In this document: positions 2,891 through 51,329 of the stretch, one piece after another | Layout: the number at the start of each line of letters is the position of its first letter | How positions within the stretch are numbered: the first letter of the stretch is position 1 | DNA from: Isoetes taiwanensis | Lineage: Eukaryota > Streptophyta > Lycopodiopsida > Isoetales > Isoetaceae | Length of the DNA: 64,000 bases | Assembly: GCA_021234155.1 (NCBI GenBank) | Contig: JAJEKV010000054.1 | Location: forward strand, 9,196,655 to 9,260,654 | Direction of reading: 5' to 3' | The notes under the pieces: model-generated | What the model was told of the DNA's origin: nothing | What the model saw: only the letters and a program-made list of their open reading frames with translations | Databases searched by the model: none | Made by a program: the position numbers and the translations under genes

Positions 2891-2970
2891 TTTTTTACAG
2901 GTGGAATGATTTGAAAATAGATATAATGAAAAATAAAAGCATGTTTATTATTGTGTTTTATCTTCAAAGA

Positions 2971-4043: not shown

Positions 4044-4055
4044 TGGTATCAGAGC
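4044..4055 (+). promoter_or_regulatory. primer-binding site, tRNA-iMet type
   Basis: TGGTATCAGAGC is the classic plant Copia primer-binding site, complementary to the 3' end of initiator tRNA-Met. It follows the LTR terminal CA with no spacer. The same motif occurs on the minus strand at 58871-58882 beside another LTR. Confidence 0.8.
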
Positions 4056-16269: not shown

Positions 16270-16838
16270 TGTTTGGGGTCTGGGTTCGGGAACTCCTGCA
16301 AGACAGCCCTCTGTGAGGACCCGTGGATCTAACAGGAGAGTCCGGGGGACTATGTCACGCGGGATTTGCAAGAAAAGAACAAGAAGAAGAAAACGAAACA
16401 GAAAAGAAAAATGAGAGGAAAATGATAAGCTTCCTTGATATCAATGATGAACATACATGAGCTCTCGCAATCGAGAGAAGACTGAAGAGAGACAAGACTC
16501 AAAACTCATCTAGCCCTCATATGCTAGCTCTACTCATATATATAGTACAATGGCCTCTGGCCCAATATAGACACTCTGACTGATCTCGGTGCCGACTCCT
16601 GGAAGGAGGCCTGTTTTGCAGGAATGTTGGCGGTGCCTCTTGAAATGCCTAGAATCACGCTGACGCTGACGCGGGCGGTGACGGCCCATCACTTGTCTGA
16701 GCGGCGCCTCTTGATAGGCTGCTGCTTGGTCTTCTGCGGGGCCTTGGATGGCTGACCCGTGGTTGGATCATGGATCCTTGAGCTTGACCTGGTCCGTCAG
16801 ATGCATGAATAGTCCTGCATCAGAGGCACAGACTAACA
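16270..16838 (-). repeat. 3' LTR of the giant Ty3 element
   Basis: 569 bp, plus-strand termini TGTTTGG...CTAACA. It matches 38229-38798 almost base for base. Its outer (left) flank differs from that of the other copy. A TATA-like run (CATATATATAGTAC near 16536 on the plus strand) lies within it. Confidence 0.93.
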
Positions 16839-16848
16839 CTCCCCCACC
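16839..16848 (-). promoter_or_regulatory. polypurine tract
   Basis: On the minus strand GGTGGGGGAG abuts the first base of the 3' LTR (TGTTAGTC). This is the expected place and composition for the plus-strand primer of an LTR element and confirms that the element runs on the minus strand. Confidence 0.75.
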
Positions 16849-17015
16849 AAACAACACTCCGGGTGAAGAAAAAGGAGGAAGTGTCTCCGAGGGCTGAAGC
16901 CCTCGGTCCTGAAAGTGATCCTCGGGGGAGTGAGGACGGGCACCATTATGGTAATCGCTAATGAGATCTGGCGTTTTTTGAAGAGCAGGAGGAGTGTTGA
17001 GCCCAAGGGCGGGGA

Positions 17016-18300
17016 TCAGCCAATGAGAAAATGAGAGCGCACCATGTCTTCAAGGGCCGCATGGGCTTTAAGAAACAAACCGGCACTCCATGAGGAGGTG
17101 AAAACCGGAGACCGAAAGCACCGACGCCGGCATTCGGATTGGCAAAAAAAAGATGGGCCGATTTGAGGAGTCGACGGGGAGGCTCTTGAGAGCAAAGACA
17201 CTAAACCCGGCCGGGCGGTGGGTGGATCAAGGGTCGGGGGAGGTGGCAAAGATGTCGCAAGAAGGTGTCGAGGCCATAAATGGCATCCTCGGGTCGTTGC
17301 CAACCACGCACATTGGCAATATAGATCCAGGTTTCAGTAGTGTCTAAGGTGGCATTATCCTCCCAAGCCGGATCGCGACGAGGCCGGGGGATCCCACCGA
17401 GATCCGGCCGAGATTTGAGGCGAGTGGATCCCGCTGCGGGCCATCCATGACCTTGGTCCAAGGGAAGACGCCAATCAGAAGTAAGAAACCCGGGGTGGAG
17501 GGGCACCCGGCAGAAGCATCGAGAGGGAGCGGTGCCCTGGGGCTGCTTGAGCCCGCTCGCCCGAATTCACCGACAAGGGCAGGATCTAGAGCCTTGCACC
17601 AACGATCCCACTCGGAAGCGAGGAGCCGAGAGTAAAACAGAGGGCTATCCCAACCCGTGGGAACTGTCTTGCTATCCAGAAGAGCACGCAGTTGATTGTA
17701 ACCGGCCAGTGGCTGCATGTAAACTTGTGCAAAGGGAAGATCCTCGGGATGTCCCAGATACTTCCTTATTTGTTGCAAATACCAGCTTGCCGGAGAGGCA
17801 AATGATGAGCAAGCTCCGAGATGTATTCTTGATGAAGAGCATGTGTCCGGGTCATGATTAGGCAGATAGGGGTTGTTATCCAAAAGCAACCATTGAAGTG
17901 TGGGGTCACCCTGAAAGTTCTGATGTGGCCCATCTCGAAATTTGTCCTGTGTATCTGCCAGATAGAAATCATGAAAAATGTATGCCATTGGCTGAACAAC
18001 TCGAAGGTGATCATATCCCGGATCGCCACGTTGAATGAGATCAAAGACTAAAAGGGCACAAAATAAACCTTTGTCTTCAAAGAGAGTTCAGGCCAGATCC
18101 GAAGAAAATCCTGCGTCTAGTGGGAACATCAACGAGACCATCAGCCGTATGCCACTTGGGGAAGAAAGAGGTGGCGGCGGGCCACCACATAGTCGATAAC
18201 TGGAAGGAATAGGGTAGTCAACAGGCAGGTTGAGAGCAATGGTAATGTAGCCTTCAAGTTTTGTGCGAGCGCGCATCGGCCAGGCCCGAATAGTTTGCAC
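17016..18300 (-). pseudogene. continuation of the extra ORF region, broken
   Basis: Overlapping minus-strand frames at 18300-18088, 17988-17344 and 17506-17201 give protein-like, Pro- and Trp-containing sequence (for example SWYLQQIRKYLGHPEDLPFA and ASEWDRWCKALDP). They look like one coding region with shifts. It follows the 445-codon extra ORF in the same direction and may once have been its downstream part. No family is recognised. Confidence 0.4.
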
Positions 18301-18487
18301 TAGTCGTTGTTCGAGGTCACGGATCCCGTGGTCCTTTTCTAATAGGGGCGTGTCCGGTCACGGACCCGTTCGGAGAAGTGTTAACTGTGTGAGGAGGCTT
18401 GCCGGGGGCATTGAGTCGGCACGGCAATCTCAGCGTCATCAAGAAGTTTACATTTTTGAACCTCCGTAAGCTGATCTTGGAGGGATG

Positions 18488-19825
18488 TTAGTTTGAGAAG
18501 TCTGCGTGGAGAGCCGAGCCGTCAAAGAGGCAATGGGCGGCCACGCCAGTAAGGTGTTGAACTTGAGTACTGTAATTTTCACAAAGCTCGGAGTACAAAG
18601 CGTTGAGTTTAGCAATATCTTTCTCCTTGTCACTAAGGAGGGTGTCTTTGGACTTGTGTTGCTCCAATAAGGCCTGAAGTTCGGATTGAAGCTGAGCCTG
18701 TTGATCTGCAAGTAGGCTGGTCTGATCCTGTGCACTTTTGAGATCTATGCGGGCCTGTAAGAGAGCCCCATGCTTTTCTTGAAGTTGGGCTTCCAAAGTT
18801 TGAACTTGTGCGATTGCGACTTGAAGGTTACTGTCCAACCGATCCGAGGGCCGTCGAGGGCGGTGAACCCCATTCATAAGAGCTTCTTGGGATTCTTGTA
18901 ACTTGAGAACAAGGCGGCTTGAGCATCCTAGCGATCTCGATACAACAAATGACGAGGGTCTTTGTGGTGGTGGAGCCAGCTGTTGCCTTGTTTGTGACGT
19001 TTGGGACACATGATGAGAACTAGAGTGCTTGGTTTCTGTAGAGGAGGAGGAGACAGTGACATGCGTGTGTTGAAGGTTGACATGACCAGAAGAAGAAGGG
19101 CGTGAAGTGCCAACGTGATGAGTCTTAGGAAGGGACTGCTGAGTGGAATTTTGAGAATGAGAGTTTGTGGGAGGAAAGTAATGACAGATGAGGGCTTGAA
19201 GATGGCCTCCCACGGAAGTTTCAGAGGGAGAAGTGGCAGCCCGAAGACGGTCTACTTCTTGGAGAAGACGGTAGAACAGCAATTGGGGCCAATCAATGTG
19301 GTGGGTTGAGCGAGTAGCAGTGACTACGATATTATAGAAAGGTTTATTGATATGGGTGTTCTTGATAGAATACCCAAGGTACTTGCGCCACAGAAACTTA
19401 ACAAAAATTTCATGGGGCTTGTCAATATTTGTGAGGCGATGCACGTTTGCATGATAAGCAGGTGCACCAAACTCAGTGACATCAAGATCCTGTATGGCAG
19501 ACCAAGATAAACAAGGGGTTTGCAAAGGAATATGGAATACCTCAGAAATCAGGTGTTGAGTCAGCGAAATGGTGGTGCCATCGACCACTGTGGTGTATCC
19601 ATGCGGGCTGTTGACGATGTTAGCGATGAACTGCTTCAACTGGTCAGGATTTGGAGCCGGAAGTTCCATTTGAGAGAATTCGTAGAGTTTCGCGCGTTCT
19701 GCGACTGCACGATTCGGGCCAACAAGGGCTTCACGGAAAGTGGGCGTCAAGAAAGAGACAGACTCGAAAAGAGCCAGTTCCCTGGGAGCAGTAGCTTGAA
19801 GTGTAGGAAATTTTGGTGCAGCCAT
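18488..19825 (-). CDS. extra ORF between pol and 3' LTR, possible plant transposon-protein domain
   Basis: An uninterrupted 445-codon frame in the same orientation as gag-pol. Residues ~20-215 look globular, with SFLTPTFREALVGPNRAVAE near the start and LISEVFHIPLQTPCLSW and FLWRKYLGYSIKNTHINKPF later. This pattern of a short domain followed by a coiled coil is like the 'putative plant transposon protein' domain carried by some large plant Ty3 elements, an assignment from memory that needs a profile search. Residues ~220-300 are Ser/His/Gln-rich and low complexity. Residues ~330-430 form a heptad-type coiled coil (LEAQLQEKHGALLQARIDLK and neighbours). It has no integrase, RT or zinc motif. Its survival as a long open frame while gag and pol are broken is notable. 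The ATG at 19825 is the first in frame. Confidence 0.6.
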   Translation of the reverse strand: MAAPKFPTLQATAPRELALFESVSFLTPTFREALVGPNRAVAERAKLYEFSQMELPAPNPDQLKQFIANIVNSPHGYTTVVDGTTISLTQHLISEVFHIPLQTPCLSWSAIQDLDVTEFGAPAYHANVHRLTNIDKPHEIFVKFLWRKYLGYSIKNTHINKPFYNIVVTATRSTHHIDWPQLLFYRLLQEVDRLRAATSPSETSVGGHLQALICHYFPPTNSHSQNSTQQSLPKTHHVGTSRPSSSGHVNLQHTHVTVSSSSTETKHSSSHHVSQTSQTRQQLAPPPQRPSSFVVSRSLGCSSRLVLKLQESQEALMNGVHRPRRPSDRLDSNLQVAIAQVQTLEAQLQEKHGALLQARIDLKSAQDQTSLLADQQAQLQSELQALLEQHKSKDTLLSDKEKDIAKLNALYSELCENYSTQVQHLTGVAAHCLFDGSALHADFSN

Positions 19826-20039
19826 GGCAAAGATTGGCGGAAAAGAACAGTGATTCCAAGCACACTCACCCCGGTTTTTGGTCCACTGTTGAAAACATCA
19901 GTTTTGGTAGGTCTACATGTCCTGTTTTCAAAGAATCCTACATGTGGATTTGTGAAGGTATGGTTTTGTTCGATAATGGTGTTCTTTTTTCAGTGGACTA
20001 AAACATCCACTGTTGTTTTGTAGTTTCTTCTATTGTGAC

Positions 20040-20560
20040 ATGTCATTTTATAATACAATCCACTGTAGGAAAGAGTACTTGAATTTCTACATGTCTAATA
20101 ATTCTATTGTCACATGTCTTTATAGATGTAGGAAAGAATATTTGATTCTCTACATGTCCTATACTTCCATTCACATGTCTTTATAGTAGTAGGACAGAGT
20201 ACTTTATTTGCTAAGGCATTGTAGGAAAGAATACATGAATTACGACATGTGTAATACTTCTATTGTCACATGTCTTTATAGAAGTCGGAAAGAATACTTG
20301 ATTCTCTACATGTCATATGCTTCCATGTCACATGTCTTTATAGTAGTAGGACGATGAGTACTTTATTTGCTAAGGCATTGTAGGAAAGAATACATGAATT
20401 ATGACATGTGTAATACTTCTATTCTCACATGTCTTTATAGAAGTAGGAAAGAGTACTTGATTCTCTACATGTCCTATCCTTCCATATCGGGTCTTTATAG
20501 TGGTAGGACAGAGTACTTGATTTGCTACATGTGATGCGTGCACGATCACATGTTCTTATA
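20040..20560. repeat. ~157-bp tandem repeat upstream of the extra ORF
   Basis: CTTTATAGAxGTxGGAAAGA recurs at about 20118, 20274 and 20433 (spacing 156 and 159), each unit built from ~52-bp submonomers carrying CACATGTCTTTATAG, TAGGAAAGAGTACTTGATT and CTACATGTCCTAT. Three higher-order units fill ~520 bp. It lies ~200 bp upstream of the extra ORF's start on the minus strand, between that ORF and the satellite. Confidence 0.8.
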
Positions 20561-20624
20561 CTAGTATTCCATGTAACACAAGTTACTTCAACTACTTCAA
20601 TTACTTAACACCTATTTTTGCATA

Positions 20625-22130
20625 ACGTGGGCACCAACATGCCAAGGTGGCTCTACCATGCCACCTAGGCTCAAACATGCCAAGGTGGCTCCAACATGCC
20701 ACCTAGGCTCCAACATGACAAAATGGCTCAAACATGCCACCCAGGCTCCAACGTGCTCAAACATGCCACGCAGCTCCAACATGCCACCTATGCTCCAACT
20801 TGCCAAGGTGGCTCAAATATGCCACGGGCTCCCAACATGCCACCTAGGCTCCAACATTCCTAGGTGGCTCAAACATGCCACATAGGCTCAAACATGCCAT
20901 GCGGGGCTCACTTAAACTCCAACATGCCAAGGTGGCTCCAACATGCCACCTAGGCTCAAACATGCCAAGGTGGCTCAAACATGCCACCTAGGCTCCCCAA
21001 CATGCCACCTAGGCTCAAACATGCCGTGGCTCAAACATGCCAAGGTGGGCTCAAACATGCCACCTAGGCTCCAACATGCCACCTAGGCTCAAACATGCCA
21101 AGGTGGCTCAAACATGCCACGTGGGCCTCCACCATGCCACCTAGCCTCCAACATGCCAAGGTGGCTCACAACATGCCACCTAGGGCTTAAAATATGCCAA
21201 GTTGGCTCAAACATGCCACCTAGGCTCCAACATGCCACCGTGGCTCTAACCACGCCACCTAGGCTCAAACATGCCATGGGCTCCAACATGCCCGTGCCAA
21301 GGTGGCTCCAACATGCCACCTAGGCTCCAACATGCTCAAACATGCCACGCTGGGCTCTAACATGCCACCTATGCTCCAACTTGTCAAGGTGGCTCAAATA
21401 TGCCACGTGGGCTCCAACATGCCAAGGTGGCTCAAGCATGCCACCTGAGGGCTCCAACATGCCACCTAGGCTCCCAACATGGCAAGGTGGCTCAAACATG
21501 CCCACGTGGTCTCCAACATGCCACCTAGGCTCCAATATGCCAAGGTGGCTCCAACATGCCAAGGTGGCTCAAACATGCCACCCAGGCTCCAACGTGCTCA
21601 AACATGCCAAGGTGGCTCAAACATGCCGTGGGCTCCAACATGCCAAGGTGGCTCAAACATGCCACCTAGGCTCAAACATGCCAAGGTGGCTCAAACATGC
21701 CACCTAGGGTCGCGAACATGACAAAATGGCTCAAACATGCCACCTAGGCTCCAACGTGCTCAAACATGCCACGCGGGCTCCAACATACCACCTATGCTCC
21801 AACTTGCCAAGGTGGCTCAAATATGCCACGCGTGGGCTCCAACATGCCACCTAGGCTCCAACATTCCTAGGTGGCTCCAAACATGCCATCTAGGCTCCAA
21901 CATGCCACCCGGGGCTCAAACATGCCGGTGGCTCAAACATGCCAAGGTGGGCTCAAACATGCCACCTAGGCTCCAACATGCCAAGGTGGCTCAAACATGC
22001 CGTGGACTCCATAATGCCCGTGGGCTCCAACATGCCAAGGTGGCTCCAACATGCCATGCAGGGCTCCAACATGCCAAGGTGGCTCGGGCATGCCACCTAG
22101 TCTCAAGCATGCCACCTAGGCACCCCAAGT
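20625..22130 (+). repeat. ~19-20-bp satellite array, first block
   Basis: A tandem array of about 75 short monomers of two main types, CAACATGCCACCTAGGCTC and AACATGCCAAGGTGGCTC, interspersed irregularly with CGTGGG and CATGCGGG variants. Long open frames across it (repeating His-Ala-Lys-Val, Cys-His-Leu-Gly-Ser) are artefacts of the period and not genes. Core words CCACCTAGG and CCAAGGTGG contain palindromic CCTAGG and CCWWGG. Confidence 0.92.
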
Positions 22131-22265
22131 GGTGACATGGCATGCCAAAGCAAGGTCAAGTTTTGACTAGGCCAAAAAAAAACCAAAGATGTCCATCTTT
22201 GGTCTTTTCATTGGGTGATGTTGGCAAGTTTTAGGTGACATGGCTAGATGATGGTGACATGGACC
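22131..22265 (+). repeat. inverted junction segment, left arm
   Basis: About 135 bp beginning GTGGTGACATGGCATGCC with GTTTTGACTAGGCC and AAGATGTCCATCTTTGGTC inside. It recurs in inverted orientation at 26105-26245 and 27921-28045, each time next to satellite sequence. The pair 22131-22265 and 26105-26245 faces inward around the 3.8-kb tandem-repeat core. Confidence 0.85.
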
Positions 22266-22299
22266 TTGGATGTCTTTGCAAACAAGGCGGGGCACCTTT

Positions 22300-25190
22300 G
22301 GCCCCTTTCTTGTGAAGGGGAGTCTTGAAAGGTATATATGCTGGTGCATTTTCTTTTTTGCGTATCGTCATCTTGCACATCCACCGCCAAGATTTCACCT
22401 TTTTGAGACCGGATTTTTATCGTGCTTTTCTTTGTGTTTATGCTCAGGAAATTCATAATTAATGCATGGGGGGGGAAAAATCCTGGTTTTCAACCAGCCA
22501 GCTGGCTTGCCAAGTGGCCCGGAGAGTATAGGAAAATCCCACCATTATTTCGGATGAGTTTTAGACCCTCGATTTTTTATTGGGATGGCCGGCGTTGGCC
22601 CGACAAGGTTTAGACACGTTTTCGATTTTGGGGCATGGAGGAGGCCCGGTTGGCGATCCGACCTGCATGGCGTCGTCCGGAATCCATGCGAAATTACCCT
22701 ATGGGACAAGTTCCACGGCGAGTTTTCCTGGGGGATCAATCACTTACCCCTCACTAGGAGGTATGCAAACATCCACCTCCATGCCAATTGACTACAAGTG
22801 TGTAGTAAGCGACCTACTTTGGCATTTCTTGAGAGGGGGGTGGTCTTCGCCCCTAAACTTGGTCCCCTAGGTAATGGGGATGTTCGGGTCCATTGGCGGA
22901 GCCAGGTTCGATTTCGGTGAGTGAGGGTCCGGCCAGATCCTTAGCCCCGACTTGGACTAGCAACTGCGAGAACAAGATACTTGGGGTTCACCACGAGGCC
23001 CCTGGTAGAAGATTGAAGTGAGAATAGCAGCACTAGGACTGCTAGGTGGTATACATGAGACCACGGAGAAGCAAAGCTAGCTCCACTACCTAGTAGGGCC
23101 GTTAAGGCAGTGGTCTTCGGAAGGGGGTTGGCTCGGGCTTCGTCTCATGCCTCGCTTGTGCTTCCATTGCGGTGCATTTTCTCTTGCGTGTCGCGGCGTC
23201 ATCTTTGCACATCACATAAGATTTCACCTTTTTTGAGACCGAATTTTTATACATTGCTTTTCTTTGTGTTTATGCTCAGGAAATTCATAATTAATGCATG
23301 GGGCGGGGAAAAATCCTGGTTTTCAGCCGGCTGGCTTGCCAAGTGGCCCCGAGAGTATAGGAAAATCCCGGTATTTCGGATGAGTTTTAGACCCTCGATT
23401 TTTTATTGTGATGGCCACCGTTGGCCTTGGCGGGGGGTTTAGACCACGTTTTTGATTTTGGGGCATGGAGGAGGCCCGGTTGGCGATCCGACCTCGCCCG
23501 TCGTCCGGAACAATGAAATTACCCTAGGGGACAAGTTCCACGGCGAGTTTTCCTGGGGGATCAATCACTTACCCCTCACTGGGAGGTATTGGCATCCACC
23601 TCCATGCCAATTGACTACAAGTGTGTAGTAAGCGACCTACTTTGGCGTTTCTTGGGAGGGGGTGGTCTTCTGCCACGAAACTTGGTCCCCTAGGTAATGG
23701 GGATGTTAGGGTCCATTGGCGGAGCCAGTTCGGTTCCGAGTGGGGGTCCAGCCCGTCCCTCGGCCCCGGCTTGGATTAGCCCACGCAAGAACAAGATACT
23801 TGGGGTTCACCACGAGGCCTGGTAGAAGATTGAAGTGACAATAGGAGCACTAGGACTGCTAGGTGGTATACATGTGACCACCGGAGAAGAAAAGCTAGCT
23901 CCACTTCTCCGGTGGGGCATTCACCAGGCCGGTGGCCTCGAGAAAGGGGTTGGCTGGGAAGCTCGTCTCATGCCTCTGCTTGTGCTTCTATTTCGGTGCA
24001 TTTTTCTCTTGCGTGTGCAGCGTCATGTTGCATATCTGCCAAGATTTCACCTTTTTGAGACCGGATTTTTTATCGTGTTTTTTGTGTTTATGCTTCCGGA
24101 AATTCATAATTAATGCATGGGGCGGGGAAAAATCCTGGTTTTCAGCCAGCTGGCTTGCCAAGTGGCCCCGAGTATAAAGGCAAATCCCGGTATTTTGAGG
24201 GTGAGCTTTAGACCCTCGATTTTTGATTGGGATGGCCAGTTGGCCAGCGGCGAGTTTAGACCACGTTTTTCGATTTTGGGGCATGGAGGCCCGGTTGGCG
24301 ATCCGACCTCTCCACATCAAAATGCGGAAGCCAAAATTACCCTAGAGGACAAGTTCCACTACCCGGTTTTTCAGGGGGATCAATCACTTACCCCCACTAG
24401 GAGGTATTGACATCCACCTCCATGCCAATTGACTACAAGTGTGTAGTAAAGCGACCTACTTTGGCGTTTCTTGGAGGGGGTGGTCTTACGCCTTACGAAA
24501 CTTGGTCTCCTAGGTAATGGGGATGTTCGGGTCCATTGGCGAGCCCGGTTCTCGATTCGGTGGGGGTCCGGCCCGTCCTCATTGACTTGGACTAGCCTGC
24601 GAGAACAAGATACTTGGGGTCACCACGAGAATACGATAGAAGATCGAAAGTGAGAATAGCAGCACTAGGGACTGCTGGGTGGTATACATGTGACCCGCGG
24701 AGAAGCAAAGCTAGCTCCAGCGCCCGATGGGGCGTTACCAGGCCGGTGGCCTCGGGAAGGGGTTGGCTCGAGGCTTCGTCTCATGCCTCTGCTTGTGCTT
24801 CTATTGCGGTGCATTTTTCTCTTGCGTGTGCGGCGTCATGCACATCCATGCCAAGATTTCACCTTTTTCGAGACCGGATTTTTATCATTGCTTTTCTTTG
24901 TGTTTATGATCCGAGAAATTCATGATTAATGCATGGGGCGGGGAAAAATCATGGTTTTCAGCCAGCTGGCTTGCCAAGTGGCCCCGGCGTCTGAGGAAAA
25001 TCCCGGTATTTCGGGTGAGATTTAGACCCTCGATTTTTGATTGGGATGGCCACCGTTGGCCACGGCGGGGTTTAGACCACGTTTTTGATTTTGGGGCATG
25101 GAGGAGGCCCCGGTTGGCGATCCGACCTCTCCATGTCATCACGGAGCGAAATTACCCTAGGGGACAAGTTCCACGGCCCTCTTGATCAGA
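22300..25190 (+). repeat. 812-829-bp tandem repeat, four units
   Basis: AGATTTCACCTTTTTGAGAC starts at 22390, 23219, 24042 and 24854 (the second and fourth with one change), spacings 829, 823 and 812. Each unit contains TTCATAATTAATGCATGGG (TTCATGATTAATGCATGGG in the fourth), a GACCCTCGATTTTT block and ATTGACTACAAGTGTGTAG (not in the last). Open frames within are repeated copies of one another and show no domain. Confidence 0.9.
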
Positions 25191-26040
25191 GGAGCATCCC
25201 CAGAATGTAAACCCTATCAAACCCTAGGGTTTGCTAGGGTTTACATCTCAGCGTCAAGGCAGGAGACTAACACATCGAAACTTTGCATGGAGTTCTCTGT
25301 GTATGCTCACGGGGACCATGCGGGAGATGGGGTCAAATCCCCTAGCGGCATGCTTTTCCGGAACTCCCTTCTTTGGAAAGGGGCTTGTGAAGGGAGTCTC
25401 AGAAAGGTATCTTTTTGCTTTGGGAAATTTGGCTCTGTCTCCCGGTGCCATGAGGGTAATCCGGCCACGGGTATTCCGCGTCGGATCCACGGGCCCCCAC
25501 GGGTCGCCGGGCATCCCGAATGTAAACCCTATCAAACCCTAGGGTTTGCTAGGGTTTACATCTCAGCGATCAAGGCGGAGACTCACACATCGAAACTTTG
25601 CATGGAGTTCTCGTGTATGCTCGGGGACCATGCGGGAGATGGGGTCGAATCCCCCTGCCCCAGCGACATGCTTTTCGAGACTCCTTCTTTGGAAAGGGGC
25701 TTGTGAAGGGGAGTCTCGAAAAGGTATCTTTGCGCCGGGGAAATTTGGCTCTGTCTCCCGGTGCCATGAGGGTAATCCAAAGACGGGTATTCCGTGGGAT
25801 CACGGGCCCTCACGGGTCATCGGACATCCCAGAATGTAAACCCTATCAAACCCTAGGGTTTGCTGGGGTTTACATCTCAGCGTCAAGGCGGAGACTCACA
25901 CATCAGAAACTTTGCATGGAGTTCTCATTGTGGTATGCTCTGAGGGACCATGCTTTGGGAGATGGGGTCGAATCCCCTAGCGCCCAACATGATGATCGGA
26001 CTCCCCTTCTTTGGAAAGGGGCTTGTAGAGTTCTCCAAGA
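25190..26040 (+). repeat. ~314-bp tandem repeat, three units, each with a telomere-motif palindrome
   Basis: Units start at 25206, 25521 and 25835 (spacing 315 and 314). Each begins with a 40-bp near-perfect palindrome built from AAACCCTA and TAGGGTTT, then a ~270-bp body with CTTTGCATGGAGTTCTC and TTGGAAAGGGGCTTGTGAAG. The body shares CTTGTGAAGGGGAGTCT with 22314-22330, tying it to the neighbouring 820-bp repeat. Confidence 0.9.
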
Positions 26041-26104
26041 TCCTTCTATTCTATCCCTTGCCAAACTCCTCTACAAAAATTTCAAAGGTTATCATATTTC
26101 TTGC

Positions 26105-26245
26105 ATAAAGTCCTAGTCGTCACCACCATCTAGCCATGTCACCCAAAATTTGCCAACATCACCCAATGAAAAGACCAAAGATGGACATCTTTTCATTTTG
26201 GCCTAGTCAAAACTTGGCCTTGCTTACTTGACATGCCATGTCACC
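26105..26245 (-). repeat. inverted junction segment, right arm
   Basis: Reverse-complement copy of 22131-22265 (about 85-90% by eye), containing AAAGATGGACATCTTT and GCCTAGTCAAAACTTGGCC. It passes directly into satellite monomers in the inverted sense. Confidence 0.85.
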
Positions 26246-27920
26246 ACTTGAAGTGCCTAGGTGGCATGCTTGAGCCTAGGTGGCATGCACGAGCCACCTT
26301 TGCATGTTGGAACCTGGGTGGCATGTTGGAGCCTCATTGGCATATGGAGCCACATTGACATGTTTGAGCTTGGCTCCAACATGCCAAGGTGGCTCCAACA
26401 TGCCACCTAGGCTCCAACATGCCACCTATGCTTCAAACATGCCACGTGGGCTCCAACATGCCACCTAGCATGCCACCCAGGCTCCAACATGCCACACGGG
26501 CTCCAACATGCCGCGTGAGGCTCCAACATGCCACATAGGCTCTAACATGCCAAGTTGGCTCCAGCGTGCCACCTAGGCTCCAACATGCCACCTAGCATGC
26601 CACCTAGGCTCCAACATGCCACCTAGACTCCAACATGCCACACAGGCTCCAATATGCCGCGTGAGCTCCCACATGCCACCTAGGCTCCAACATGCCACCA
26701 CGCTCCAACATGCCACATGGGCTCCAACATGCGACCCTAGCATGCCCACGGGCTCCAACATGCCACGTGAGCTCTAACATGCCACCTAGGCTCCAACATG
26801 TCAGGTGGCTCCAACATGCCACCTAGGCTCCAACATGCCAAGGTGGCTCCAACATGCCACCTAGGCTCCAACATGCCACCTACGGCTCCAAAGATGCCCC
26901 GTGGGCTCCAACATGCCACCTAGCATGCCACCTGAGGCTTCAACATGCCACGGGCTCCAACATGCCGCGTGAGCTCCAACATGCCACATAGGCTCCAACA
27001 TGCCAGGTTGGCTCCAACGTGCCACCTAGGCTCAAGCATGCCAAGGTGGCTCAAATATGCCACCTAGGCTCCAACATGCCACCAAGGCTTCAACATGCCA
27101 CGTAGGCTCCAACATGCCACCTAGGCTCCAACATGCCAAGGTTGGCTCCAACATGCCACCTAGGCTCCAACGTGCTCAAACATGCCAAGGTGGCTCAAAC
27201 ATGCCACGTGGCTCCAACATGCCATGTGGGCTCCAACATGCCAAGGTGGCTCAAACATGCCACCTAAGCTCAAACATGCCAAGGTGGCTCCCACATGCCA
27301 AGGTGGCTCCAACATGCCACCTAGGCTCGAACATGCCACCTAGGCTCAAACATGCCAAGGTGGCTCAAACATGCCACCTAGGCTCAAACGTGACAAAATG
27401 GCTCAAACATGCCACCTAGGCTCAAACGTGCTCAAACATGCCATGCTGGCTCCAACATGCCACCTATGCTCCAACTTGCCAAGGTGGCTCAAATATGCCA
27501 CGTGGGCTCCAACATGCCACCTAGGCTCCAACATACCTAGGTGGCTCAAACATGCCACCTAGGCTCAAACATGCCATGCATGCTCACTTAGGCTCCAACA
27601 TGCCACCTAGGCCCCAAACATGCCAGGTAGCTCAAACATGCCACCTAGGCCCCAACATGCCACCTAGGTGTTTGAGCCACCCGCAACATTGGAGCCCACG
27701 TGGCATGGTTGAGCCACCTTGGCATGTTGGAGCCCGGTGGCGTATTGGACCTAGGTGGCATGTTTGAGCTTCCTTGGCATGTTGGATCCTAAATGGCATG
27801 TTTGAGCCATATTGGCATGTTGGATGCCACGTGGCATGGTTGAGCCACCTTGGCGTGTTAGAGCCAAGGTGGCATATTTTGAGCCTAGGTGGCATGTTTG
27901 GGCCACCTGGCATGTTGCCG
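26246..27920. repeat. ~19-20-bp satellite array, second block with orientation switches
   Basis: Same monomers as the first block. From 26246 to ~26350 they run inverted (GCCTAGGTGGCATGCTTGAG), from ~26370 to 27665 forward, and from ~27666 to 27920 inverted again. The switch at ~27665 makes a local palindrome. Open frames across it are period artefacts. Confidence 0.9.
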
Positions 27921-28045
27921 TGCCATGTCACCCAAATTTGCCAACGTCCCCACGAAAAAACCAAAGATGTACATCGTTTCATTAGTGGCCTAGTCAAAAC
28001 TTGACCTTGCTTACTTAGCATGCCATGTCACCAATTGGAGGTCAC
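27921..28045 (-). repeat. third copy of the inverted junction segment
   Basis: Contains AACCAAAGATGTACATCG in place of the palindromic GATGTCCATC core, and GGCCTAGTCAAAACTTGACC. It is in the same inverted sense as 26105-26245 and closes the satellite domain on the right. Confidence 0.8.
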
Positions 28046-31000
28046 ATCATCTTTTCCATGCTCTTTGCTTGTATTGCAAGTGTAACGACATCAAGATCCC
28101 ATTATACCTCTAGCATTTATTTCCTATGGGTTTGTAGGCGACTTTATAAACAATGTTTCAAGGGTTATCAGGAGAATCGTTTTAGAAGTACAAAGGACCA
28201 AGGATTGATCATATCATGGCCTACAAGTTTACCTTGTATTATATATGGCGCCGTATTATTGGACATGCATATAACCTTCTCATATTCATTTCCTTTCCTC
28301 CTAGTTTGTTGAAGTGTTACAGGTTAGAAGCTCTCAATTTGGACTCACGAGATTCAACAACTCAAAAATTTAACAACTCCTTCACGAGTCGTCCATGTGA
28401 ATCAAAACAGGGGAAATGGAATTTCGTTCCATTATATGACTTAAGAAACTCGAAGTCCTAAGGGATAGGGCAATTGGGGGATTCTTAACTCCTTGTGGAT
28501 GGAATTCAACTATTGAAAATGGGTGAAAATAATCGTACCCTAGTTTTGATGATTCTTTCGCATGGTATTCCTTCCAGCGGAATCACCAATTAAGAAATTA
28601 CGTAGATGGAATCATTTGCCCAAACTATGCAGTAACACAGTAATTACGCATTTTGAGGGAAATTTCTTACCCTCTGAATGAATCCATAGGCACTCGAGCA
28701 GGTTTTTGGTTTGCATGGATGACCTCCTCTAATCCATCTTATTCTGACCCTCATACAAGTCATCCGAACCAACCTGGAGCTCAATCGACTGAGATATTCA
28801 TGCTCAAAGATTTGAGCAAAAACGCGAAAAAGGAATACCATGCGATGTAATCACCAAAACCCGGGGCGGATTATTTTCATCCCTTGAGAGTGTAAGCATG
28901 GGAATGCCCATGGCGACATGGCCATTAAGGTGCGAGCAACATTTGAATTGCAAAGTACATTATAGCTAAATGGGAGTTGGAGTTAGAATGTCTAGGAAAA
29001 AATAAAATAAAAATACTAATAGGGGCTATATTTTCCTTAGGATGAAAAACAACTTATTTTTTATACATGCATAGTAATTTGTCATTTTATTCAGCGGTAA
29101 AGATGAGCGGCGAGGATCTTGATCCACATCCTATGATTTTATTGGCTCGATAATTAATGGTTAGATTAAAGGCAGCCGAGATCAGCGTCACGGATCTTGA
29201 TCCCTCTCCTTTAATCTTATTGGCTTAGAGTAAAGGCACATTTAACCCTTGTAATTTTCCCGCCTAAGTTTTGTGCTTTTGTGCCCCTTTTACCTAGTTT
29301 TTGCCTCTGCGACTACAATTTTGAAGAAACACAGATCGGCCTTCGCATGGCTATGGCGATGGCGCTTTAATTTGGACTTCGCGGCTATGTAACCGCATGG
29401 CTATGGCGATGGCGCTTCCAGCAATCGTAGTGGCGCTGGCGCTGGACTTTTCTCCAGCTATGGCCGTAGCATCTGGTAGCTCTTCCTCAGATTCTACCTT
29501 TCTTGTTGCTTTTGATTTTTTTTGTTTCAAATCAATCACAAGATCTTGCTATTTATTTGAAACAGGGATTGTGATAGTCGTTGTGGCGCTGAGCGGTAGC
29601 CCTAAAAGAGCCAAGGCAGATCGGATCACGGCTTGCAAGATCTTTCTATGACGAGGTTTGGTAGAAAAACTCATCTAACAACAATCGATACAAAATAATT
29701 GTTCTAACTTGGCATGGCGAATTTTTCTTAGCGGATGGTCAATTTGTTCTATTGTGTGAATGGCGGTGGCTTCAAATATGGCTGTGGCTTTGGTTATCAA
29801 ACATATAAATTTTACGGATGCGCATATGGGCAGAAAATCTGCATACATTACGTGCTATGGCAATAAAAACCCTCTCCGGATGTGCGGTTGGGATAATATT
29901 TTGAAACTAGGTTTCAAGGCAATGATAAAGCTTCGATGAAGCAAACACATTTGGATAAGATTTCGGATAAGGTAGTAGCGGACGAAAATATGATGATGGT
30001 ATGTGCCCAATCAATCATGTTGTTGTAGCGGATGGATCTCTATTATAGCGGATGGATCTCTATTATGAAGCTTGTTAAATCTGGAAAAGAAAAGGGTTTC
30101 CTTGTGGCAAAATTATATAGGTAAAGGGTCTTCAAGAGCCCAAACAATTTGATACGCCATTCTATTATTAAATATTCTTGTTTATCTTTGATGAATCATT
30201 TGTAGCCATTTGTTTATCTTTGATGAATCAATAACATGGATCGAGTTGTTCTAAAATGAGCCTTCATGATTTGCGTAGTTTTAGTGGCCTATTCTTGCAA
30301 CTGCAATAACCAATGTTTAATAAAACTGCGCTTTTGCAATAACCAATGTTTAATAAGCGGGCCGCACATTTATTTCTTCTTAAACAATGTATGCCCGTGT
30401 TAATATATCATTAGCTAGGATAGCTAGGATAGGAGATATATTAGAAATGTGTTTTTTCTATGCGTTGTAATGGTGCATTTTTAATTTTGAAAGTATGCCA
30501 CGTGTTAATATTCTATTTGCTAAAATGCATATTAGCTTTTAAATCATAATATATTAACTTTTAAATTGTGGTCTATAATAATTTTTTTTTAATGTGTGCC
30601 ACGTGTCAACATTTGATTTGTTAGAAGATATATTATAAACAATACTTTATTTTTCCTACGTGTAGTAATAATGCTTTATTATTTAAAAAGTATGCCATGT
30701 GTCCATATTTGATTAGCTAGAATAATGTTTTATTATTTAAAAAGTATGCCACGTGTCAATATCTCATTAGTTAAATAACCACATTAGAAATTTACGTTTT
30801 TTCTACATGTTATAATATTACTTTTTATATGTCCTTATTTTAGGAAAACAATAGCTAAATTTCAATAACATATGTAGTGTTTTATAAATTAAAAAAAAGG
30901 CCATGCGTGATTTTTTTAATTTTGCAAAAACAACACTTGAAACGACGTGTCGTTATTGAGGAAAAGAACAGTTGAAAACATCATATTTCTATTTCCTACG

Positions 31001-32230
31001 TGTTCTTTTCTTTGTAGTCCTTTATTTCTAGTGTTGTAATTTAATTTTTCAGGTGTAGTAAAATTAAAACCTATGCGTGCGATTTTGCATGGTTCCACAA
31101 AAAACAACATCGAAGGAAAAAAGTACACGTTGACAAAAATTCACAAAAACTATGTTAATTTTTTCAGCGTGGAATTTTCCCGCCAAAAAACCACCTTGTC
31201 TCTTTTGTGCAAATCCGGATAAAAGCGACCCCGCGTGGACTTTTGGGACCATTTGGTGTTGTTTTGGCATAAAACAACACCTCAGTACAAGTAAAAACAA
31301 GCGTGGTCCAAAAATTGGGGTCGGTGTGAAGGCAGAGGACGAAGCAAAGAAGCGAGGACGAAGGCGCCAGAGAGACGAAAAAGGTTTAGGGGCGCCGCAA
31401 AGATGGGGAAGGGGCATGATAAGGGCTAAGCTGCAACCGTGGATGGTGCCAGTGTCGAGGAAGGATGCTAAGGGGCGATTGAGAGGCAAAAATTTGGCTA
31501 AGTCCCCAAACAACAAAGGGAGAAGCAATGAACGGTGGAGATGAGGCGGAGAGAATGAGGGGATGTGACAGTGGGCAAAGGACACACATTAATGTCCGAC
31601 GGGCGTGAAAAGAAGAAATGGCATTCAACTTTGGTAACTTCGAAGTGGGATATCATTAAAAGGAATGTGTCAAGGTACCATGGCTAGATATGCTACGGGA
31701 GAAAAGATTCTCATTTTAGAAAAAAACCTTGCATTGCAAAACACGTTGGCGATTGTTGTGATTGGTCCACATCGACAAGGAGTTCCTCGCTTGGCTATAT
31801 AAGACTAACCGAGTGAAGCAAAGGTATCCGATGGCGCCAAAGATGGTCGCCGCCGGGTTTGAACGAGGACCGCACTATGCCCACGTAACCGCCGGGAGTG
31901 GATTACCCGCAAGATGAATTGGCCGACCTCTCGGCGCCGCCACAATCGTGGCGTGAGAATGGACGGCTGGTGTGCGGGATGGTCAACATCCCGACCAAGA
32001 CCAACGGATGGAGGTGGTTCGCACCTTTTGGGATCCCTGAAGCGTAACCTCCTCTACCACCTCCTCCAAGATCACCTGCCCGAACCCGGGAGTAGAGGGT
32101 TTTTCCTCTTAGGTTTTAGTAGATGGGGCTCTGAGCCCATTTTTGTATATAGGGCGGTGCCCATATTTTAATTAGATGGGCCGTGCCGCATTTTGTAAAA
32201 ATATCCACTATAATATAAGATGCCGCCTTT
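28046..32230. other. AT-rich spacer of the giant element with short repeats; no gene assigned
   Basis: This lies downstream of pol on the minus strand. It contains many small direct duplications, for example AGCGGATGGATCTCTATTAT twice at ~30026-30065 and CATGGCTATGGCGATGGCGC twice at ~29347-29416. A plus-strand promoter-like pair occurs at about 31760-31800 (GATTGGTCC then GGCTATATAAGAC), followed by a very short frame. The 130-codon plus-strand frame at 31152-31544 has no recognised domain. Confidence 0.45.
30390..30790 (+). repeat. degenerate repeat with CACGTG cores
   Basis: Variants of TATGCCACGTGTCAATATTT followed by GATTAGCTAG recur at about 30390, 30493, 30596, 30691 and 30744. Spacing is ~50-105 bp and identity moderate. 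CACGTG is the plant G-box core, but no gene is nearby to regulate except the element itself. Confidence 0.6.
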
Positions 32231-35200
32231 CTAGTCACTGTGGTGTTTGCTTCTTGAACTCAGACCGTTTTGTTGATTGTCGCTTTTACGGTGATGAAAT
32301 GTTTTGAGGCTAAAACCATTAACCAATGTAGGTAATGGAGTGCCATCTAACTCAGCCGGTTGGAAAACGCCGGGTCGAACCACTTGAATAATGTGATAAG
32401 GCCCAAGCCAATGAAACTTAAGTTTGCGGGAAAATTTTTGTACACGGAATCATAAAGAAGAACCAAATCGCCTTCTTTGAATGTTTTGTCTTGGACATTT
32501 GTCATGTAAAGATTTTTGCAACTATTTGTCCATGAAGGACTCGAATATAAGCATCCCTTCTAAGTTCATCCAACTATTTCCAACCGATAGACCCTTTCTT
32601 TGAGTGCGCGGTGGATTATTGGTAGTAGCTAGTTGAAAAGCGGAGTGTTGGAAGGATGTATTCAAAGCGGCATGAGAGCTTCGACCATAAACCAATTTGA
32701 AAGGAGTGTGTCCCCAGAGCAATTTTGAAACAAGTATTGTAGGCCCACGACAAAGTAGGAAGTTTTGTTTGCCGGTTTGTGCGTGAAGCGTCACAAATTT
32801 TCTTGAATGGTGACCGAGTTTTGTTGGTGCTTTTGCCAAACCATTACCTTGAGGATAGTAAGGTGTGCTCTTGTGATGATGTATCGGGGAGATAATCCGC
32901 CGGTTCCTTGATGGTATGATTGATAAAGTGGACACCACGATCAGCGACCAGCTCTCAGGGGCAGCCGAGGCAGCGTGATGATTTGTTGATAAAGGACCCG
33001 GCCGTGTTTGCTGCAGGTGTTATGCGGAAGTCACGCAAGCTTCCGCCCATTTAGTAAGCGAGTCGGTGAGAACGAATAGGACGTAACGCACGCGTGTGCC
33101 GCAGAGGGTCGATGGGTCCCACAAAATCCATTCCCATTTCTTTGAAGGGAAGCGGCGTGGCAACCGGCGCCAAGGGAAGAGCCGCCACGGGCGCCACCGC
33201 CCCACACGCCGGCAAGCATCACACGCGGGCGCGGGCGTGAGCGTCTTTGAAGAGCGTGGGCCAAAAATACCAAGCAAGAAGGATTTTTGCGTCGTGGTGT
33301 CACCATGAAAATGACCACCACCTAGCCCTTGATGAGCCTCTCGAACAATATCACGGTACTTCATGAGGTAGAAACACAGTCGCCGAAGGATGGTGTCCTT
33401 ACCCTTTTGTAGAGATGTCCCGCAACCATGGTGTAGTCACGGACCTGCGTGAGGAGAAATTGATGTCGACGGGATTGCCGCTTGGAGAGAGGCGTCGCCT
33501 TACGGTGGGAGAGCACCGTGAGGAAGTAACGCTGAAAATCATGGAACCAATGTGGTGTTGCCGTGACTAAAAAAAGAGCCGAGCATCGGGAAAGGCGCCT
33601 CGAGACTCAGTTGAGGGATCATCTGCGGTGTATGCGTGAAAGATAATCCGGGGACGACATGAGATTTTTGCCGCCTTATGAAGCGATTTCAAAAAGGGCA
33701 AATTCTTGAGAAGAAGGACCCAACGAGCAATGCGGCCCGTGGGCGTGGACTTGTTGATCAGATAAAGGAGTGCTTGGTGGTCCACAAAGAACTTGATTTG
33801 ACTTCCCAAAAGGTAGTGAGGGAAGCGTTGAACACAGAAAATGAGACCCAAAGCTTCACGCCTGCGGGCGGAATAGTTGCGCCAATGAAATTGAGTTTTC
33901 GGCTGGCGTATCGATTTGGTTTGTCAGTGTGCGCATCATATTCTTGCGAAAGAACAGCTCCAATAGCAAACGCCGAGACATCGACATGAACATGAAAGGG
34001 TTTGTCCCATTGAGGAGGAACAAGAACCGGGGCCTGAGTAAGCAAAAGCTTCAACTGTTGGAAAGCAGCATCCGCCTGGGAATTCCAAGCCCAGGTGGAT
34101 TCGTCACCCGTGAGTTTATGAATGGGATCTGCAATGGCTGCTAGTCCAGGAATGAAGGTGGAGTAATAATTGACCTTACCCAGGAAAGAGCGTGTCTCCT
34201 TGATATTGGCTGGTGCTTGAGCCTTGAGCACACAACTGATTTTGGCAGGATCGGTGGTGATACCTGCTTTGCTGACAACGTGGCCTAACAGAACTCCTGA
34301 GGTGACGCAAAAGGTGCATTTCTCAGGATTGAGACTAATGCCTGACTCATCACATTTCTGGAAGACGAGTTCCAATTTATCCAAATGGTCACCATGGAAT
34401 CAGAGGCGAGAAATCATCTTGAAAAATTTGTAAGAAGGGATTTTCCTTCATGAAATCATGAAAAACTGAGAGCATGATGCGTTGAAATGTGGATGGAGAG
34501 TTTGATAAGCCAAAAGGAACCACCTTGTAGGCAAAAGTGCCCCACGGGGTGGTGAAAGTAGTCTTGAGTTGATCAGATTCTTTGATTGAGATCTGATTGT
34601 AGCCAGAAAAACCATCCATGAAGGAGTACATCTCATGTCCAAATGACCTCTTCGAACCACGGTTACGTGAAGGAAGTGAAAAATGATCACGCCCCGTGGC
34701 TTTGATTGAGTTTTCGGTAGTCCACATGAATACCGGATCTTACCATTGTGTTTGAGTGCAATGACAATAGGGCTCACCCATTCAGAATGTTTGACCTCAT
34801 AGATCAAACCTGCAGCAAGGAGCTTGTCAATTTCTGCCTTGACGCGATCACGGTAGTTGGGGTTGAGCCGGTACTGTCGTTGCTAAACTGGACGTGCATC
34901 AGACTTGGTAGGAATGGTGAGTTCCCCAAGCTTTTGTTGATGCCGAAGATCTCTGTAGCTCGGTAAAATGTGTTTGAATTTTTTAAGCGGTGGACGCCCC
35001 TGATACGATAAGGGGTAGGAAGATTGGCAAACAATGCGCGACAAAGCTAATTGTTGCCCACGCCCACGATCACCGACTTCGTGGAGTCTGAATATGAGGT
35101 ATCACTTCTGTGTCCTGGACAATATGTGCAGGTGGTTGAAGCATAACAGGATGCGTGGCACTCTGCGTGGTGAAAAAGAGAGGTTGCTGAGTTTCATCCA

Positions 35201-35940
35201 GCAGAGGTTGCTTCATGACAGCGGCGTGGGGACAGCGAAGTTGCGGGGAGGTTCAAGATTCGCAAAGTGATCAACACGTTGGATTCTATTGCAAGGAGCC
35301 AGGTAAAGGGTCAAAAACAAAGCGCCCACAACCGGTCCCCGATCAAGAGTCATTTCTCCCAAGGATCGATATGGCCGGGTAGGATGACGAGGCGCACTTC
35401 GCGGTGGAGCCTGAACGCGTGATAAATATTCCCGAGCTTCCCTTTAATCTGTGGTCCGAGAGAGAGGGTTCAGCATGTTCAACGTAAATGATCTTGCCCG
35501 CTTGTAAGTCCATGGTGGCATTGAGGTGACCATCGTGATGACCAACCGATCCGCGGGCCCAAGAATGGATACTCTTGGCTCGGCGGAGAAAAGGTCGGCC
35601 AACCAACATTTCATAATCACCAGGATCTTCTCCATCCTTCCAAACTCCAAATTCCATTGGGAATCGGAGTTCACCAATGTTGATGTGAAGAAGAGGCGTG
35701 ACGCCTTGAGGTCTGGTGATATGGCCATTAGCAAACTTGATGTCATATGGGGAGCCCGAAAAGAGTTGTTTGATGCCCATTTGTTTCAAGGAGTTTATCC
35801 GTGATGAGATTGACTGCGCTACCTCCGTCTATTTGTACATGGTTGACTTGCTGGTTACCCACCGTGGCATGGACCGTGGGTGTAGAGGTAATGACCCCAA
35901 CTAAAACGGTTGGGGAGTGGTAATCGGTCCTTGAGAGCAA
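32231..35940 (-). pseudogene. Ty3 pol: protease, RT, RNase H, integrase, frameshifted
   Basis: Minus-strand order from 35940. The protease has an active-site-like VQIDGGSAVNLIT and a C-terminal YEMLVGRPFLRRAKSI. RT follows with YSFMDGFSGYNQISIKESDQ, PFGLSNSPSTFQRIM and a FQDDF box in place of the usual YVDDI/L. The RT connection and RNase H include FLGKVNYYSTFIPGLA and FHVHVDVSAFAIGAVLSQEY. The integrase has an HHCC-like zinc region, LTDSLTKWAEA around the first Asp, STPYYPQGNGLA, and a C-terminal GDLVLLYDSVYKNFP module. The minus-strand stop TAG is at 32233-32231. The frame changes several times (for example near 35750, 34400 and 33400), so the enzyme is not made intact from this copy. No chromodomain is seen after integrase. 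Confidence 0.85.
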
Positions 35941-38181
35941 GACAGAGTTTCAAAATGGTTGCCAAGCTTAAGGGAATTTTGATCTTAGCGAGCTCCTCTT
36001 GGAGTTCTAGAGGCACATGAGAAAAAGGATCTGCTGGTTCCACGGGTGCTGGAGTGCGTGGTAGTGAAGCAGCAACTTCTTTGAGTAAGTCAACCTCTGC
36101 AGCAATATTGGGATATGTCTGAGAGCGTGGAGGTTGAGATGTGGAAGGTGTATCATGTCGTTGTTGAGCCCTGGTGGTGGCATGAACATTTGCTAGCGTG
36201 CGGCCTTCAGCAGCTTGCATGAGATTCAAAATGCTTTGGCGAACTTTAGGCATGACATGTGGCATGAGTTTCTCCAAGTCAGGTGCAAAATGAACCTTTT
36301 TTTCTTCCTCATGAGGAATGGTGTCAACTGCAAAGGCAGATTGCGTGCCATTTGGAATAATGGTCAAGGGACGTGATGCCCTGGTCTGGCGTGAAACCAA
36401 ACCTACCCAATTTGATGGCTGGACTGGAGGATTAAGTGCCTGAAAAATTTCCTCCTGTGCTTGTTGATCCAGCGGAGGGTGATTTGCGGGAGCTGGTTGA
36501 TAGCGTGATTGCTGAGGCGCTCTTGGTGGCTTCTTAAGAACTGGTCTCGGGCCTTGTTTGCCATTAGCAATCCAGAGTTGGTAAGCCGTGAGGCGGACTG
36601 ATGTGGTCTGATTGGTGCCAGGAAGCTGTACCTGAACTTGTGGAAGTTGAGGACACGCCGTGGTGGTATGACCCCATTCTTGACAGTGGTAACACTGAGC
36701 TTTTGAAGGATCAAAAGGAGGACGTGGGTTTGGTCCCCGTTGTTGCTCCTGTTGCGGATAAAGTGGAGTTGGTTGCGCCTGAAGTGGTGGCTGCTGATAG
36801 TGCGATTGTTGCTGAGGTGTGGTTTGCACTTGATAAACAAGTTTGTTGCGGAATGGTGTAGGATGAGTGCGAGTGCACTCTTCCGTGGCATGATTGCACA
36901 TGTTGCAGCGCTTGCAATGAGGTGGGCCATTGGTGGAGTTGCATTCATTCGCCAAATGGCCTTGGTATTTGCAAATATGGCACCAGATCTGACTGCGCTG
37001 TGGATTAGCGTGTTGAGGCTGGACAGCCGTCTGTGGAACCATGACAGGTGGAATGAAAGGGAGCTCTTGAAGAGCCACGCCACGGGAGGAAACATTGACT
37101 GAGTGATTGACGAGGTCGATAGCCTGCTCCAAAGTCTTGGGACGCAGGTATTCAGTCATGAGTCGAATAGCTGGAGGAAGTCCTTGGAGAAACCAGACCA
37201 AAATCTGGCTCTGTGTTGGGTACTCCTTGAGCTTACTTAGCAGAATGTGAAGTCGATCCGCAAAATCCCGGGCAGACTCCGTGGGCTCTTGTTGAAGTTC
37301 ATTGAGTTGCTTGAGATGAAGTTGATCATCATCCGTGGTCCCGTAATGAGAAAGAAAAGCAGTTCGCATCTCGGACCAATCTTGTTTCCAGTGGCTTTTG
37401 TTGGACATGAGCCATTGATGAGGAGAACCACGCAGGGTGGTAGAAAAGATGTGGAATTTCAGTTGAGGTTGCGCATGACCATTTAGGACAGCTAGAGCCT
37501 CAAATTCTTCCATGTGGGCCCGAAAGCACTTTGGTCTAAGGGTTTGCCTTCGTGTTGCCAAAGGTGGGATAAGCCGGCCAGAGTCCAAAAGGTAGATGTG
37601 AAAGTGCTTGGCTGGACAGGAACAGTATAGTGAGGATATTGAGGTTGAGTTTGAGGTGGCATGGTGCCTGAAGGACCCTGATGAAGGGGTGACTGCGGTT
37701 GAGGAACTGAAGGTACCTGAGCATTGGTTTTGAGATCTGTAAGGTTGTAAACAGGAAGTGCAGTGGGAAAGGTAGGGAAAGGAAATTCTTGGGGAGGCGC
37801 AAAAGAGACTTGTGGATATCCCTGCCCACCCGGGGGAGATGATGGTTGTGAAGGAAGAGGCGTATGGCCTGAAGAGTGATGGATGTAGGCATGTTCAGGG
37901 GTATGAAAGTACGGTTGAGAAGGTTGAGCCTGATAGAGCTCCTGATAGTGATGAGGAGACTGAGGCTGTGAGCAATGTTTGCACGCTTGAGGTGGGGAAT
38001 TTGGACGAGACATGACACGAGGGGTGGGTGGCGCCGACTGAGCCCTAGACCGAATGTGGCCTCCCTCAATGTCATAAGTAGATCCATACATGTCGCGAAC
38101 AGTTTCCCGACGCTGATGGCGCTCCAAGCGAGATGCCGTCTGAGAAAGGAGTTCTTCTGGCGTGAAGTTTCGGACAGACAT
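35855..38181 (-). pseudogene. Ty3 gag with three CCHC zinc knuckles, one frameshift
   Basis: The reading frame opens at ATG 38181, 30 bp after the primer-binding site, and runs 229 codons to 37492; the protein continues in another frame from about 37530 to 35855. The N-terminal third is Pro/Gln/Ser-rich. The capsid-like (retrotransposon gag) domain includes FRAHMEEFEALAVLNGHAQP, SEMRTAFLSHYGT and SARDFADRLHILLSKL. Three CX2CX4HX4C knuckles follow: CHICKYQGHLANEC, CKRCNMCNHATEEC and CYHCQEWGHTTTAC. A single shift near 37530 separates the two halves. Three knuckles is more than the one or two usual for Ty3 gag. Confidence 0.85.
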
Positions 38182-38210
38182 GGCGACAGAAGAAAGTAGG
38201 ATTGAATCAG

Positions 38211-38227
38211 ACCCGGCAGCGGCGACA
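38211..38227 (-). promoter_or_regulatory. primer-binding site of the giant Ty3 element
   Basis: Directly after the 5' LTR the minus strand reads TGTCGCCGCTGCCGGGT. This resembles the tRNA-Asp-type primer site used by some large plant Ty3 elements, with a few mismatches. The tRNA assignment is from memory and tentative; the position is secure. Confidence 0.6.
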
Positions 38228-38228
38228 G

Positions 38229-38798
38229 TGTTTGGGGTCTGGGTTCGGGAACTCCTGCAAGACAGCCCTCTGTGAGGACCCGTGGATCTAACAGGAGAGT
38301 CCGGGGGACTATGTCACGCGGGATTTGCAAGAAAAGAACAAGAAGAAGAAAACGAAACAGAAAAGAAAAATGAGAGGAAAATGATAAGCTTCCTTGATAT
38401 CAATGATGAACATACATGAGCTCTCGCAATCGAGAGAAGACTGAAGAGAGACAAGACTCAAAACTCATCTAGCCCTCATATGCTAGCTCTACTCATATAT
38501 ATAGTACAATGGCCTCTGGCCCAATATAGACACTCTGACTGATCTCGGTGCCGACTCCTGGAAGGAGGCCTGTTTTGCAGGAATGTTGGCGGTGCCTCTT
38601 GAAATGCCTAGAATCACGCTGACGCTGACGCGGGCGGTGACGGCCCATCACTTGTCTGAGCGGCGCCTCTTGATAGGCTGCTGCTTGGTCTTCTGCGGGG
38701 CCTTGGATGGCTGACCCGTGGTTGACTGCGGATCCTTGAGCTTGACCTGGTCCGTCGTATGCATGAATAGTCCTGTACCAGGAGGCACAGGACTAACA
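38229..38798 (-). repeat. 5' LTR of the giant Ty3 element
   Basis: 570 bp, matching 16270-16838 with a few differences clustered at the outer end (for example GTACCAGGAGGCACAGG against GCATCAGAGGCACAG). Minus-strand termini TGTTAGTCC and CCCCAAACA. Confidence 0.93.
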
Positions 38799-51321: not shown

Positions 51322-51329
51322 GTGCAGTT
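51322..51329. repeat. 8-bp target-site duplication, left
   Basis: GTGCAGTT, identical to 52370-52377. It lies in the Copia codons for Asn-Cys-Thr, which are duplicated on both sides of the insert. Confidence 0.9.

Follow-up and report, generated by a model that had tools for sequence, protein, structure and literature searches.

The subject of this work is the span 16270–38798 of a 64,000-nucleotide stretch of Isoetes taiwanensis DNA (contig JAJEKV010000054.1; hereafter the window), which a preliminary description had treated as one insertion of a Ty3 long terminal repeat (LTR) retrotransposon. We found that this 22.5-kb span almost certainly consists of two insertions: a Ty3 element of about 11 kb, lying on the minus strand with its 5′ LTR on the right, and an 11,468-bp CACTA-like DNA transposon (19861–31328, no strand assigned) that nested in it later. 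We observed directly the unoccupied sites in sister Ty3 copies, the ends of the transposon, its 3-bp duplications and the independent dispersal of its family, and the claim of a single insertion fails on the empty sites, the ends and the dispersed family. The long gap between pol and the 3′ LTR pointed out earlier is real and measures 15,392 bp. That the spacer grew after the Ty3 insertion, one of the two origins then proposed for it, holds as to the outcome, but the growth was the arrival of a single transposon, which has terminal repeats and is flanked by a target duplication. The nesting itself is ordinary, as it combines two known kinds of element.

All genome searches were run against the window's own genome, a 1.66-Gb assembly. 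The genome-wide LTR search proposed in the preliminary description, in which the best 40 of 4791 first-look candidates were scored, yielded seven same-strand LTR pairs no more than 30 kb apart, the window's included, and we fetched the other six as full-length copies. The segment 19861–31328, and with it the satellite spacer, is missing in all six. Alignments to these sister copies end at 19854–19861 and restart at 31329–31347; in L033, L035, L037 and L039 the break is exact at 19860/31329 with a 3-bp overlap, while L031 and L042 also lack the block, their flanks meeting with small indels. The window junctions read ..CCAAG, then CACACTCACCCC...GGTCGGTGTG, then AAGGC.., and the clean empty copies read ..CCAAGGC... 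The AAG that is single in the unoccupied copies thus stands on both sides of the insert, at 19858–19860 and again at 31329–31331. Without the insert and one copy of the duplication the window element is predicted to measure 11,058 bp, with 3,921 bp from pol to the 3′ LTR, and the sister copies free of large inserts measure 11,073, 11,081 and 11,117 bp. When the native empty site of L035 was used as query, every one of the 40 places scored (the best of 2023 candidates, among them the site from which the query came) was uninterrupted over at least 280 of the 281 query bases. Among the 40 LTR hits a further same-strand pair, separated by 45.7 kb on C1040, was left out of the fetched elements; L019 of this pair has its polypurine block on the side facing away from L023.

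The insert also belongs to a family that disperses on its own. Searches with its right end (best 40 of 1085 candidates scored) and with its left 203 bp (best 40 of 1036 scored, each 100% identical; the left end of the window insert is absent from the 40 listed) gave two lists that pair into eight elements, the two ends of each lying on the same contig and strand. Of these, seven measure 8,617–11,597 bp and one measures 20,194 bp, and all eight are flanked by perfect 3-bp duplications (ATT, ATG, TGA, AGC, TCA, TCC, AAT and ACA). A further member, C1037b (13,596 bp), sits in another Ty3 copy at a different site, with the duplication ACA; it is close to the window insert only at the left end (711 bp), the remainder being similar in patches. 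With the window's AAG included, the 3-bp duplication is therefore perfect in 10 of 10 members checked. The preliminary description had named terminal repeats and target duplications around a nested element as what would overturn its account; we looked for both and found them. An earlier scan limited to the window had placed the nested ends at 20007–30974 with a 7-bp duplication AAAACAT, a call reached by 1 of 60 shuffles and disproved by the sister copies, and it warns against naming ends without empty sites. The 20.2-kb member C919 was considered as an autonomous copy and rejected, its 704-residue open reading frame (ORF) being Ty3 pol; this frame, at L069 61–2172, is a reverse nest, with Ty3 pol lying within a transposon member.

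As to its class, the family shows the 3-bp target-site duplication expected of CACTA elements but not the CACTA start, since its ends read CACACT and the window right end CACACC. No ORF longer than 193 residues was found in five members, and Pfam detected no transposase in two ORFs of the window insert, one ORF crossing its edge and nine ORFs of C1037b. The tnp2-type transposase expected of CACTA elements, Transposase_21, is plentiful in the genome, with 167 matches in the best 150 of 2311 candidates scored. We therefore call the element CACTA-like: it works like a non-autonomous CACTA element and, its CACAC terminus notwithstanding, may be a true member of the superfamily beyond mere resemblance. 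We regard as improbable, though deserving more weight than the other alternatives, that the insert is a DNA transposon of another superfamily that makes 3-bp duplications, for example PIF/Harbinger, as the duplication length and the non-CACTA pentamer would allow. PIF/Harbinger elements use a TWA-type target, a pattern that does not fit the ten duplications (AAG of the window, ACA of C1037b and those of the eight paired members). Moreover, parts of PMC8978399 and PMC2613891 describe, for CACTA elements, 3-bp duplications, repeats close to the ends and satellite arrays inside.

The CACTA-like transposon also accounts for the satellites. The tandem arrays that the preliminary description saw between pol and the 3′ LTR are real, and five of them occupy 20064–27916. 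From the left end of the transposon these are an AT-rich array of three 159-bp units (20064–20527), a 19/38-bp minisatellite array A (20630–22114), a tandem repeat of about 820 bp in 3.4 copies (22343–25192), a 314-bp repeat in 2.6 copies (25199–26026) and a minisatellite array B (26262–27916) with inverted stretches at 26262–26369 and 27692–27916. Members C932, C960 and C256 share the architecture of the transposon: C256 carries a 157-bp array of three units, all three carry 19-bp arrays, and the 820-bp repeat aligns in C932 and partly in C960 and C256. An array of 312 bp in 2.5 copies was found in C932 only among these three. The segment 22023–22258 is repeated in inverted orientation at 26119–26351 and 27922–28040, edging the minisatellite arrays. 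The satellite arrays are thus cargo of the transposon family, which is hereby documented as dispersing tandem arrays. We would go further only tentatively, giving slightly less than an even chance to the idea that this is a large family (8.6–13.6 kb in 9 of 10 sized members), apparently without proteins, that multiplied recently and carries preformed satellite arrays through this genome, seeding minisatellites at many places, including inside retrotransposons, with CACAC marking an unusual CACTA branch.

Two readings that do without a transposon fare far worse. A giant Ty3 lineage replicating with the 15-kb satellite spacer within its RNA could be argued from the LTRs, which are about 98% identical and lie outside everything else, and from parts of PMC6317226 and PMC11963269, which describe plant Ty3 elements of large size that have tandem arrays ahead of the 3′ LTR. 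The satellite block is missing from every sister copy fetched and from the 40 scored sites, however, and it recurs at other places, bounded by ends and duplications of its own, so this reading is extremely improbable. As the sister copies have an empty site and the insert has its own ends and duplication, we drop the case for a giant retrotransposon; one candidate giant is thereby removed, and sister copies with an unoccupied site are the check that decides such cases. Growth of the spacer in place after the Ty3 insertion, by satellite expansion or segmental duplication, would suit the mostly tandem-repeat make-up of 20064–27916, but exact boundaries, inverted ends and a 3-bp duplication, together with a member on another contig (C932) that aligns at 92% with the final 8.1 kb of the window insert, leave it next to no likelihood.

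Several observations weigh against the nesting of a CACTA-like transposon in a Ty3 element, or against details of it. The inverted ends of the window transposon are imperfect, matching at only 17 of 21 positions, and the terminal pentamer is CACAC rather than CACTA. At its right end the window copy departs in 35 aligned columns from six family copies that are identical to one another. Three transposase loci of 10 kb each (L070–L072) have neither the family ends nor similarity to the insert. The 5-mers flanking the window LTRs, TCTGG and TCTGC, match at 4 of 5 positions, and the six other Ty3 copies all have perfect 5-bp target duplications. Finally, the six sister copies were drawn from the best 40 of 4791 LTR candidates, and the empty-site search scores best candidates only, which favours unbroken sites. 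Within 31168–31328, the window right end is identical to the six copies for about 66 bases, after which differences begin abruptly. Decay, gene conversion or uneven quality of the consensus could each account for the discordances, among which we count the flank mismatch, the differences at the right end, the clustering of LTR differences in the U3 end, the divergence of internal regions between Ty3 copies and the indel runs described below. The same doubt attaches to a recent burst as the explanation of the left ends with 100% identity. The evidence of the empty sites is untouched by these discordant results.

We propose the following order of events. A Ty3 retrotransposon of about 11.06 kb, with gag, pol and a single additional sense ORF between its two LTRs, would have integrated first. 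The 11,468-bp CACTA-like transposon would then have entered the stretch that separates pol from the extra ORF, at a point 35 bp upstream of the likely first ATG of this ORF, and duplicated AAG. It presumably moved by cut and paste with a transposase supplied by another element, and the satellite spacer would have arrived as its cargo. The transposon is probably younger than the Ty3 insertion because it lies inside the Ty3 element and sister copies lack it.

The Ty3 element itself has LTRs, a polypurine tract, gag and then the reverse transcriptase (RT)-RNase H-integrase order of a Ty3 LTR retrotransposon. The near identity of the LTRs noted in the preliminary description was borne out: the 3′ LTR (16270–16838, minus strand, 569 bp) and the 5′ LTR (38229–38798, minus strand, 570 bp) share 98.1% identity across 572 aligned columns. 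Its polypurine tract and primer site are likewise at the expected positions. The tract, GGTGGGGGAG on the element strand, was read directly beside the 3′ LTR (16839–16848, minus strand), and the primer-site-like stretch TGTCGCCGCTGCCGGG, which we take to resemble tRNA-Asp, directly follows the 5′ LTR and is kept in several Ty3 copies. ARAGORN found no tRNA within the window. The alignment suggested for dating the insertion was made, but the dating was abandoned because the differences are bunched in one end stretch and concentrated in 3′ LTRs: the 479 columns of one stretch all agree, and of the 93 that follow 80 do, the differences being packed in the U3 end. We compared 33 LTR rows, omitting L001 and L002 as duplicates of the window LTRs, and took as 3′ LTRs the 14 that are followed by a polypurine-like block. 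The U3 end of about 80 bp (16759–16838 and 38719–38798 in the window) is variable in 3′ LTRs and nearly constant in the others; by eye, more than three of its columns are changed in 9 of 14 3′ LTRs as against 2 of 19 other LTRs. The internal regions differ far more between Ty3 copies than the LTRs do.

Gag and pol are in the order first described (LTR, gag, RT-RNase H-integrase), but pol is split into many frames. Gag (35855–38181, minus strand) has a frame broken N-terminally, in pieces at 37495–38313 and 35858–37894, the latter with a Pfam Retrotrans_gag match at 2.3e-12; in copy L044 a gag-protease frame runs over 942 residues. The frameshift-broken pol remnants (32231–35949, minus strand) comprise protease, assigned by motif, RT, RNase H and integrase, and the last integrase piece ends at 32231. 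RVT_1, RT_RNaseH and RT_RNaseH_2 are above the Pfam cut-off in the window pieces. None of the window's protease and integrase pieces reaches it; their positions were taken from alignment with L035 and L037, in both of which Integrase_H2C2 is above cut-off. In gag-protease comparisons substitutions lean to codon position 3, and the RT-RNase H of L033 shows no such lean against C952 (29:25:27 by codon position) or C1037a (18:18:19). An IMG/VR scan with RT-RNase H gave no relatives.

The extra ORF noted in the spacer is real, but it lies outside the insert and is the Ty3 family's own, being present in other copies. It occupies 17344–19825 on the minus strand, sense to pol, and is broken in the window (main pieces 18488–19825 and 17344–18087) and open over 817 residues in L042. 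Comparisons with five other copies all show an excess at codon position 3, the substitutions between the window and L042 falling 81:70:175, so the ORF was once a gene under selection. Of 49 indel runs in the comparison with L042, one is a multiple of three. The ORF matches no Pfam family at cut-off, with weak coiled-coil matches only; PDB sequence searches gave weak matches (best E 0.045 and 0.12), and an IMG/VR scan gave no relatives.

Other rearrangements were seen in and around these elements. Copy L031 holds a 2.1-kb insert with inverted ends CTTGGTTCGGGAAATTT at 2241–4398, and another Ty3 copy has a 13-kb insert in pol (L042 5209 to L043 8323), with direct repeats of about 1.5–1.6 kb, 89% identical, near both ends. 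Right of the nest, in a transposon-rich region, lie an RVT_1 piece and copia remnants (RVT_2) at 43189–43662 and 50667–54197. Rfam gave no matches.

In its extra ORF between pol and the 3′ LTR and its length of about 11 kb, the Ty3 element resembles the OTA-type elements of plants (Athila, Tat, Ogre, Retand), which have additional ORFs and a long interval from pol to the 3′ LTR. Its 3.9 kb from pol to the 3′ LTR without the insert falls in the Retand range of 2.9–6.6 kb, but its extra ORF is sense and without a Pfam family whereas the Retand TRP28 ORFs are antisense, as parts of PMC11963269 give them. The second RNase H (aRH) of Tat had no match at E up to 0.1 in the open frames covered, which lie downstream of protease in L044, upstream of RT in L033, from RNase H to integrase in L035 and L037, and beyond integrase in L037; a divergent domain could be missed there. 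No chromodomain was found in the 322-residue frame of L037 past the integrase end, which has a weak SH3_Tf2-1 match below cut-off. With neither domain detected by Pfam, neither a Tat nor a chromovirus affiliation (lineage features from parts of PMC6317226) is supported. Passages of PMC6317226 and PMC6431247 describe large LTR elements of plants whose expanded non-coding parts hold tandem arrays. The transposon, unlike CACTA (En/Spm) elements, has CACAC ends, no ORF longer than 193 residues in five members, and ends that the three transposase loci lack. It shares with CACTA elements, including Chenopodium elements that carry satellites and the soybean element Tgmt* of 20.5 kb, the 3-bp target duplication, short inverted ends starting with CAC, partly inverted repeats near the ends and tandem arrays inside (parts of PMC8978399, PMC7320549 and PMC2613891). 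Satellite arrays within CACTA elements, and links between CACTA transposons and satellite DNA in Chenopodium, have already been described in portions of PMC7320549 and PMC8978399.

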